Positions 30,943 through 38,495 of a stretch of DNA of 45,954 nt are shown in pieces. The notes below the pieces were generated by a model. It was not told where the DNA came from, ran no database searches, and saw nothing but the letters and a program-made list of their open reading frames with translations. This DNA comes from a virus, in the IMG/VR virus record IMGVR_UViG_3300024288_000003, positions 1 through 45,954 of that record. One strand, given 5' to 3'. The translations under genes were made by a program, and so were the position numbers. The first letter of the stretch is position 1. Every line of letters starts with the position of its first letter.

Positions 30943-30979
30943 AAAACATCATAACATGACTGTGTGACTGTGTTCCTGT

Positions 30980-31020
30980 GAGACACCAGCCCCCTCCCTA
31001 GCCTGAGGGTGTCTCTCTTC
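30980..31020 (+). terminator. Hairpin, possible terminator, nested in inverted repeat
   Basis: The stem GAGACACC (30980-30987) / GGTGTCTC (31008-31015) has perfect 8-bp pairing. Inner CCCTC/GAGGG bases can extend it. It is followed by TCTTC, a poor T-run. It lies 37 bases after the stop of the 30652 gene, so it may end that transcript. Confidence 0.5.
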
Positions 31021-31064
31021 AATCTCTCCTACACACAGTTATGTTATGTACATCTGTAAATGTT

Positions 31065-31127: not shown

Positions 31128-31340
31128 TTTATACACCGTAAGAGCGATAGCTTATCATTCTAGGAAACATATAACTTAGCAAGATACACATTAGATTAGT
31201 CCATGCAGTGAGCTTGACACATGCAGCCTGTAGGCGTACCCTGGGAGGGGTAGCCACAGTCATGCGGTCACACAGTCACCTTAGATCGTTTCTGAAACTT
31301 TCTTTGATGACATTTGCAAACTCAATTGGATTAATCTAAT

Positions 31341-31571
31341 ATGGATATATATATCTCAAACTGGTCAATCGCTCTAAATCGAATCCTCTTTCCAAGGCTT
31401 ACACGTGTGAGATTCAATGAACTCATGCATTCAGTGGTTGTGAGATTGGAGCAAGATAAATTCGATTATGATGATCAAGGAATTACACCGGATGAATTCT
31501 GCATGCTCATCAAAGAGCTTGTGAAAGAATATAATCTGCGCTGTGTCGGAGGTAATTATGGCAAACAATAA
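31341..31571 (+). CDS. Small hypothetical protein
   Basis: A 76-residue mixed alpha/beta protein, not recognised. It has ATG 31341 after a TAATCTAAT stretch without a clear ribosome binding site. The body LTRVRFNELMHSVVVRLEQ is a probable helix and the C-terminus is short and basic. It overlaps the next gene's start by 14 bp. It opens a tight run of small genes ending at the helicase. Confidence 0.62.
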   Translation: MDIYISNWSIALNRILFPRLTRVRFNELMHSVVVRLEQDKFDYDDQGITPDEFCMLIKELVKEYNLRCVGGNYGKQ

Positions 31572-37020: not shown

Positions 37021-37049
37021 TTGACAAACTTCTCGGCCTCCTGTATTAT
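37021..37049 (+). promoter_or_regulatory. Strong sigma-70-type promoter
   Basis: TTGACA (37021-37026), a 17-bp spacer and TATTAT (37044-37049): perfect -35 and a one-mismatch -10. It directly follows a GGGGCCCC palindrome (37012-37019) and lies about 80 bases upstream of ATG 37132. The best rightward promoter that I can find in the window. A small ATCGG/CCGAT hairpin (37057-37076 region) falls in the leader. Confidence 0.85.
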
Positions 37050-37131: not shown

Positions 37132-37836
37132 ATGAACGACACTACTGCTACTGCAACTGCTGCAATCGCTGGCACTCCAGCAATCCAAGCAAATTTTGAT
37201 AAAACCGTTGATGCAACTGATTTCAAGTTCCGTTTTAAGAAAGATAAGCTCGGCAATCAGCGTGCAAACGTTGAACTCAAGGCTTATGTTCCTTCGGTTG
37301 AAGGTATCATTGCAATCCTCGAAAAGGGTGGCAAAGGTCTTGAACTTCTGAAAGATGCAATCTCTGACACGGTTCGCTCTGCAATTGCAGCTGATGTTGC
37401 CGAAGATGAGAAGTATGCTCAAGCAACTTTCGATGCAGCTACTCTCCAACTCAAGGATGAGAAGGGTGAGGTTATTGCAACTCTCCCGAAGTATTCTTGG
37501 GAAGCAATTGCCAATCAGCCTCGCGAAGATCGTCGTGCATCTACGATTGATACGGAAACTTGGGAAGCTTTTGCCAAGGATTATCAGGAAGTCATGCCTG
37601 GAGTTACTGCGAAGTCTGCAGAAGCTGTTGCCAATGCAACGATCGTTTTCCTGAAGAAGTTCTCGATTGTGAAAACCAACAAGGATGTGCTTGCGAAGCT
37701 GAAGGAACAGCTTGGTTTGTACATGGAACATTCCAAGAATGCAGAACAGTTCTCGGAAATCCTTGAACTTCTACTCAAGAAGGTTGATACGTACCTGGGC
37801 GCAGATGATGTCCAGAAATTGGTTGAGAATCTGTAA
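37132..37836 (+). CDS. Abundant-type protein of unknown function behind strong promoter
   Basis: A 234-residue protein with Thr/Ala-rich start, FKFRFKKDKLGNQRANVELKA, then helix-rich DVAEDEKYAQ, EVMPGVTAKSAEAVANA and LYMEHSKNAEQFSEILELLL. Codon choice stands apart: Arg is mostly CGT or CGC and Lys often AAG, where neighbours prefer AGA, CGA and AAA, which fits a highly translated gene. No clear ribosome binding site precedes ATG 37132. Possible roles include a DNA-binding coat or inhibitor; none can be shown. No homologous motif recognised. Confidence 0.78.
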   Translation: MNDTTATATAAIAGTPAIQANFDKTVDATDFKFRFKKDKLGNQRANVELKAYVPSVEGIIAILEKGGKGLELLKDAISDTVRSAIAADVAEDEKYAQATFDAATLQLKDEKGEVIATLPKYSWEAIANQPREDRRASTIDTETWEAFAKDYQEVMPGVTAKSAEAVANATIVFLKKFSIVKTNKDVLAKLKEQLGLYMEHSKNAEQFSEILELLLKKVDTYLGADDVQKLVENL

Positions 37837-37842
37837 AGAATT

Positions 37843-37877
37843 CGCGGGATTGACACAGTTAACGAACTAAACCCGCG
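37843..37877 (+). terminator. GC-rich stem after the 37132 gene
   Basis: CGCGGG (37843-37848) pairs with CCCGCG (37872-37877) around a 23-nt loop that contains a GTTAAC palindrome. There is no T-run downstream, so it is weak as an intrinsic terminator; it begins seven bases after the stop and could be an mRNA stabiliser or the 5' part of the structured region. Confidence 0.4.
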
Positions 37878-37910
37878 TCACATCTCCTAGGCATGAGTAT
37901 AAACTGCCTG

Positions 37911-38041
37911 CTCATACTGATGTCTATTAGATGGTAACTTTCAGAGTCCTCCCTACTAGGCGTGCCAACATCTAGTTTCTGGAAGATCTAAGCATAAAAT
38001 ACTCCAAGTTCTGGGGAGTGGCTAGTAGATATCAGTATGAG
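37911..38041. ncRNA. Candidate structured RNA: 20-bp closing helix
   Basis: Arms 37911-37930 (starts CTCATACTGAT) and 38022-38041 (ends ATCAGTATGAG) are complementary at 18 of 20 positions, and both differences are G-T/T-G, so the RNA helix would be unbroken with two wobbles. It encloses about 90 nt, with an inner ACTCC/GGAGT hairpin (38001-38019). No supportable gene lies within 37837-38192. Wobble-only differences favour RNA over DNA function. The second arm also overlaps a 62-codon spurious frame. Role and family unknown; strand could be either. Confidence 0.6.
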
Positions 38042-38192
38042 TATAGAGTATGGGAGATAGATTGATTGGTTTATATAGGTGTGCATTGGAACTCGATAAC
38101 CAATGGGTAAGAGTTAAAACGATACCAACTATAGCAGCACGTGTACAGCTGGGGTCGAATCCAGTACGGATAACTCCAAGGAAATCCGAGGA

Positions 38193-38495
38193 ATGTTTAG
38201 TTGGAATACTAGTAATCGGCCAGTGTACACCTATATGAGTCAGTATGAAGAGTCAATGTATAAGCCCTTATGGGAGAAATTAAAAGCAGATAAACGGGTA
38301 TCCGTAACTGCCAATAAAGCTCTTCACCCTAGAATTATTAAAGCAGTTAAGAAACGTAAGTGGCTCGACATAGGATTCAAGCTACAAATAGAACCTAACA
38401 GAGCTCTCCTCTCTCATGCTCGACAACATTCGATCCTCACATTTTTTCTAGAACTCAAGTCTCCTCCCAAAACATACACTGCGAAAGATTTTTGA
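38193..38495 (+). CDS. Small basic hypothetical protein
   Basis: A 100-residue protein: RPVYTYMSQYEESMYKPLWE, LKADKRVSVTANKALHPRI and IKAVKKRKWLDIGFKLQ. The basic KKRKW cluster and alternation of strand and helix suggest nucleic acid contact (inference). AAGGA precedes ATG 38193 at long spacing; a downstream ATG at 38235 is an alternative start. Not recognised. Confidence 0.68.
   Translation: MFSWNTSNRPVYTYMSQYEESMYKPLWEKLKADKRVSVTANKALHPRIIKAVKKRKWLDIGFKLQIEPNRALLSHARQHSILTFFLELKSPPKTYTAKDF

Follow-up and report, generated by a model that had tools for sequence, protein, structure and literature searches.

A conserved structured RNA between recognised or suspected ssDNA-binding protein genes and the next start codon in uncultured phages

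The window, by which we mean the whole 45,954-nt stretch analysed here (IMG/VR virus record IMGVR_UViG_3300024288_000003), carries on its plus strand a gene for a 234-residue protein and, downstream of it, a gene for a small protein of 86 residues, with several structured elements in between:

37021..37049, plus strand: promoter-like site TTGACA-17-TATTAT, agreeing with the consensus at 11 of 12 positions and supported by that agreement alone
37132..37836, plus strand: upstream gene; its 234-aa product belongs to a conserved family, the fold of which is unknown, with homologues in IMG/VR loci
37843..37877, plus strand: GC-rich stem-loop CGCGGG/CCCGCG after the stop codon, read from the sequence
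37884..37909, plus strand: motif A, an H-type pseudoknot with stems S1 (37884-37886/37895-37897) and S2 (37889-37893/37905-37909)
37909..38043, plus strand: motif B, the main element, closed by helix P1 (37909-37930/38022-38043) and supported by folding, covariation and the covariance model R1
37931..37995, plus strand: 3-bp helix of motif B (A37931-T37995, T37932-A37994, G37933-C37993)
37934..37937, plus strand: conserved loop strand GUAA, opposite AUCUAAG at 37986-37992 (consensus RUCWAWG)
37938..37985, plus strand: P2, a hairpin of variable length with an often C-rich apical loop, here UCCUCCC
38001..38019, plus strand: P3, the hairpin of type II copies after the AUAAA junction, taken from the fold
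38065..38244, plus strand: second hairpin (type III), closed by 25 bp in the style of P1 around a different core, z −5.7
38235..38495, plus strand: downstream small gene, 86 aa, QYxPIW family, beginning within the second hairpin's 3' arm

The promoter-like site precedes the upstream gene and shares the strand of the element. The 234-residue protein had no Pfam, PHROG or PDB match of its own, and its AlphaFold2 model (pLDDT 75, pTM 0.48) gave no fold match; a role in ssDNA binding or recombination is suspected, inferred only from its position and from the recognised or suspected ssDNA-binding protein (SSB) genes found at the same place in other loci. The 86-residue protein is predicted to follow a helix-strand-helix-helix-strand-strand order, which is that of a winged helix, and its model (pLDDT 87) gave no significant fold match.

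The initial annotation had described two 20-nt arms pairing fully as RNA, preceded by a GC-rich stem and matching no known RNA class, and all three claims held. As DNA the arms (37911-37930 and 38022-38041) are complementary at 90% of positions, and as RNA they pair throughout (18 Watson-Crick pairs and two G-U pairs); the stem is formed by 37843-37848 with 37872-37877. P1 extends beyond these 20 bp to 22 contiguous pairs, and the 37905-38047 fold reached −52.3 kcal/mol (z −4.27), as good a value being found in none of 200 shuffles. The whole window contained 22 helices of at least 15 bp against a mean of 7 after shuffling; in a scan of its long hairpins the 37909-38043 helix ranked second, the strongest being 38065-38244. 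The upstream pseudoknot, the second hairpin downstream, the conserved core within the helix and the tie to the start codon of the next gene had all been missed.

Relatives were gathered by scanning the 234-residue protein against IMG/VR, which gave 22 loci. The DNA 3' of the gene was inspected before any structure search, and the same elements were visible in many of these loci: a short pseudoknot, and a hairpin containing TGGTAAY and GCAKAAA as internal motifs. A pattern built on these two motifs matched 82 stretches, many of them chance matches without a closing helix. The pattern matches with a closing helix and the copies found through the protein together made up 32 distinct aligned copies; model R1 added L010, L018 and L198, and L087 carries a short-helix version, bringing the total to about 35 distinct relatives, all from uncultured phages. 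The window copy scored 63.5 bits against R1 (E 2.8e-14), a model that was built including it. The element occurred as one copy in each of 15 out of 24 records, the other nine having none. No element was found in cellular genomes, which were scanned with the type I pattern only, nor was a convincing match seen in the stretches examined of the closest isolated phages that encode a related helicase (Polaromonas phage Tiera, Aeromonas phage P5 and Pseudomonas phage PaMx41).

The 32-sequence alignment shows 37909-38043 to be a conserved structured RNA in which pairing is kept while the sequence changes. The structure was kept in 94.1% of base-pair cells, with two-sided changes in 24 of 27 pairs, whereas slid controls were only 26–43% paired; the covariation score was 0.80, compared to 0.20 in shuffles and 0.07–0.15 in slid controls. 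The P1 percentage is partly the product of selection, because copies without the outer helix were left out, and the search pattern dictated two of the three inner pairs, which are invariant and uninformative. No such selection bears on the first inner pair or on P2: the former was C-G in 21 copies and A-U in 11, without exception among the 32, and the pairs of P2 covary and were 90% paired. L198 shows a further compensated change in the inner helix (AUC/GAU).

The shared architecture consists of the long P1, the 3-bp helix (CUG/CAG or AUG/CAU), the internal loop GUAA/RUCWAWG, the variable P2 and an AAA(A) junction, to which a third hairpin is often added. P1 varies freely in sequence and measures 18–26 bp (median 22). 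The 17 invariant columns, some of them set by the search pattern, are grouped around the internal loop and the junction; the core pairing covaries and the loop letters do not. Type I copies, with C-G as the first inner pair, have a short AAAU bulge in nearly all cases (L009 has a third hairpin), and type II copies, with A-U and including that of the window, all have a third segment after AUAAA. Type III retains P1 and an AAA(A)C junction around a different inner hairpin, and is represented by 38065-38244 of the window and by L066 and L198. CCTCC was present in 10 of 32 P2 segments compared to 1.5 expected, and its reverse complement in none; the apical P2 loop of the window, at 37945-37952, is C-rich in the same way as that of about a third of the copies.

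The wobble pairs settle the selected molecule and strand. Across the family, the inner 10 bp of P1 contained 32 G-U, one A-C and no other mismatch, and over 18 bp of P1 there were 42 G-U against 8 A-C (p 1e-6). Neither DNA pairing nor RNA of the opposite strand, if selected, would favor G-U on the plus strand; it is therefore the plus-strand RNA on which selection acts. The initial annotation had argued from the two G-U pairs of this one copy that RNA pairing is selected; its argument holds family-wide, the covariation among relatives that it proposed as a check is strong, and one finding that would have refuted it, a conserved protein encoded by the region, was not made, as no recognised protein is encoded there.

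With the covariance models of Rfam 15 at the gathering cut-off, no match was found in the whole window, on either strand, to any family including tRNA, tmRNA, RNase P, GOLLD, STAXI, riboswitches and ribozymes; relaxing the cut-off to E 10 gave only three chance matches, and 13 relatives gave tRNAs only. No description of the element or the pseudoknot was found in the open-access literature searched, outside of which most subscription papers lie. Neither RNA thus matches an Rfam family, and it is against Rfam 15 and open papers alone that they count as new. Three other readings were discarded: protein coding, as the 62-residue ORF at 38050-38238 had no family match and the pairs covary strongly; an intrinsic terminator, as no GC-rich hairpin followed by a U run was present on the plus strand in the gap; and a resemblance to the hairpin ribozyme seen by eye (GUCAA..CAGAAA, CUGGUA), as the topology differs.

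In the records that bear it, the single copy adjoins a replication or recombination gene for a recognised or suspected SSB, the SSB role being partly inferred. It lies 3' of the 234-residue family even at 27–28% protein identity (L037 and L097, another small ORF intervening in L037). The gene before it encodes an Enc34/Gp2.5-type ssDNA-binding protein in L044 and a small protein in L064, L075, L078 and L093; in L087 it lies between the gene of a Sak4-like ATPase and that of a small protein. By our reading of the sequences, the small protein is encoded downstream of a Sak4-like ATPase in L064, L078 and L093 as well; it looks SSB-like, an inference without a family match. The next gene varies, encoding mostly the small basic QYxPIW protein but other small proteins too. 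A tie to the downstream gene family alone was rejected, as L003, L012, L016 and L017 have that family but lack the element, and L044, L064, L078 and L093 have the element but lack that family.

In most copies the element also reaches, or closely precedes, the start of the next gene. In ten copies the ATG lies within the 3' arm of P1, 3–9 nt inside it in L006, L007, L008, L011, L024, L029, L045 and L080 and likewise within it in L010 and L018. A purine run resembling a Shine-Dalgarno (SD) sequence ends the P1 arm in L064, L078 and L093. Where a further long hairpin follows the element, as in L009, L015 and the window, the ATG is instead in the 3' arm of that hairpin. Most other copies have the start 5–22 nt beyond the P1 3' arm, and in L027, L058, L076 and L097 it is 29–157 nt downstream. 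A trait of start-masking leaders of the T4 type, a start codon or SD sequence in the 3' arm of a stable helix, is thus present, or missed by no more than ~22 nt, in most copies and absent from a minority. The window P1 3' arm contains an ATG of its own at 38037, opening a frame of only seven codons (38037-38060); the working start seems to have shifted behind the second hairpin.

Directly upstream of motif B, the pseudoknot is another conserved RNA, with a wide distribution among phages. Its consensus is NNUC-CU-GAGCA-U-GANN-UAAAAC-UGCUC. A pattern of fixed length matched at least 120 stretches, and 181 instances were analysed. Stem positions that had not been selected for were paired in 179 of 181 instances (84 expected; S1 position 3) and in 155 of 181 (78 expected). 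Within 15 nt of a stop codon were found 49% of the pseudoknots, compared to 4% of random positions, with a commonest spacing of 8–9 nt and none below 7 nt. The phages carrying it infect very different hosts, and it often stands just before tRNAs. In L064, L075 and L093 GC-rich stems take its place. A role in protecting the 3' ends of messages is our guess. In 22 of 106 cases the pseudoknot was preceded by phrog_1221, a family without a function name.

The fold, the strand, the position and the start-site overlap of motif B are shown by the above. As to its function, we favor a cis-acting leader of phage replication and recombination operons that masks the start of the next gene, mainly because start sites overlap or adjoin the 3' arms of long helices; we would give this reading no better than an even chance. 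Repression, opening, cleavage and protection are all inferred, without transcript, probing or translation data. The operon transcript would run from the suspected ssDNA-binding protein gene into the small genes, and the RNA in between would form a junction with a closing helix of ~22 bp, the 3' arm of which contains or abuts the next start site. When folded, it should block ribosomes at that start, so that the upstream protein would be made in excess or earlier. The core (the CUG/CAG or AUG/CAU helix, the GUAA/RUCWAWG loop and the AAA junction) most likely binds a factor that opens, cuts or locks the element; the length of the helix would suit host RNase III, a cut by which would free the downstream message, and the pseudoknot upstream probably shields the 3' end of the upstream message. 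Against masking stand the starts that are 29 nt or more away, the inconsistent downstream gene family, the window's own P1, the ATG of which opens only seven codons, and the conserved core, which would be superfluous in a pure start mask.

Among known systems, the T4 genes e, soc, 49 and I-TevI have their SD sequence or AUG hidden in a helix in long transcripts (PMC3014915), and it is this placement in the 3' arm that the present element shares. T4 gene e forms a stem-loop, with late promoters located around its 5' arm, whereas the present element has a conserved junction and core and a longer helix, and a search of the window for sigma-70-type promoters, which did not extend to phage-specific ones, found no second promoter from the P1 5' arm to the ATG. 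As no internal promoter was found, the trigger that would open the helix remains unidentified. Regulatory RNAs of phages are hardly known beyond a few model phages; to these is added a well-supported family that is precisely placed, with a recognised or suspected SSB gene on one side and the start codon of the next gene on the other, together with a second RNA, the pseudoknot, which is far more widespread. Should start masking prove true, it would show small phages setting unequal protein levels within one transcript.

The alternative that survives best is an intercistronic processing site, at which host RNase III would cut the long helix as in T7-type phages and part the upstream message from the genes that follow, with the core doing no more than shape the cut; this remains possible. 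P1, with a median near two helical turns and a sequence free to change, satisfies the need of an RNase III site for a regular helix of ~20 bp or more, and immediately 5' of P1 are a stem-loop and a pseudoknot, at the place where a 3' end created by the cut would have to be protected. There are no cleavage data, and RNase III sites are not known to require an invariant core of the present kind. The RNase III sites of T7 are likewise long intercistronic helices in a phage operon, but are not known to have a conserved three-way core.

Less likely is a protein-binding operator, in which the upstream SSB-type protein or the small downstream protein would bind the core and repress its own operon in the manner of T4 gp32, which autoregulates through a pseudoknot leader (PMC535899). 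For it speak the adjacency to recognised or suspected SSB genes of three unrelated protein families and a downstream protein that is small, basic and winged-helix-like in element order. Against it, the downstream family and the element each occur without the other, and the element lies 3' of the SSB-type gene and not in its leader, except in L087. The gene 32 operator of T4 and RB69 resembles the present arrangement as a pseudoknot and leader in a phage ssDNA-binding-protein message (PMC535899, PMC3014915), but it lies 5' of its gene, a condition not met in the window, and its sequence is unrelated.

A small-molecule switch or a self-cleaving ribozyme of a new class, with the invariant core as ligand pocket or active site, is also doubtful. 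The fixed loop letters amid covarying core pairs would fit it, but there is no metabolic gene partner, no known riboswitch or ribozyme in Rfam matches, and a 22-bp closing helix would keep the products of a ribozyme together. An even bolder reading, in which the core is a new class of active RNA timing the replication genes and forms with the pseudoknot a phage-wide post-stop RNA toolkit, seems improbable to us. There is very little to suggest that the element is the precursor of a trans-acting small RNA, the C-rich P2 loop of which would pair with SD sequences: the CCTCC excess, the lack of its complement and the single copy per record speak for it, but half of the copies have no CTCC at all, and neither a promoter nor a terminator of its own was found in the window. 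A hairpin of ssDNA, such as a replication or packaging signal, would suit the setting among replication and recombination genes but is practically ruled out by the G-U to A-C ratio of 32:1, which selection on DNA pairing is not expected to leave.

Two other described RNAs share features with the present ones. The STAXI motif also comprises pseudoknots near ssDNA-binding-protein genes, but as tandem repeats, often with UUCG tetraloops (PMC2864571). The L17 downstream element likewise follows a gene in high demand, as a structured RNA in what may be its 3' UTR (PMC2864571), but no start codon overlap has been described for it. The RNAs reported here differ from both in lacking an Rfam match.

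Long hairpins were also seen elsewhere in the window. One at 31184-31346 (z −3.4) holds in its 3' arm the ATG at 31341, the start of a 76-residue ORF, so that at this gene, too, a start codon is enclosed in a helix; no relatives of the gene turned up when they were searched for. Another, at 30950-31048 (z −5.2), has a 17-bp closing helix and lies in a gap between genes.
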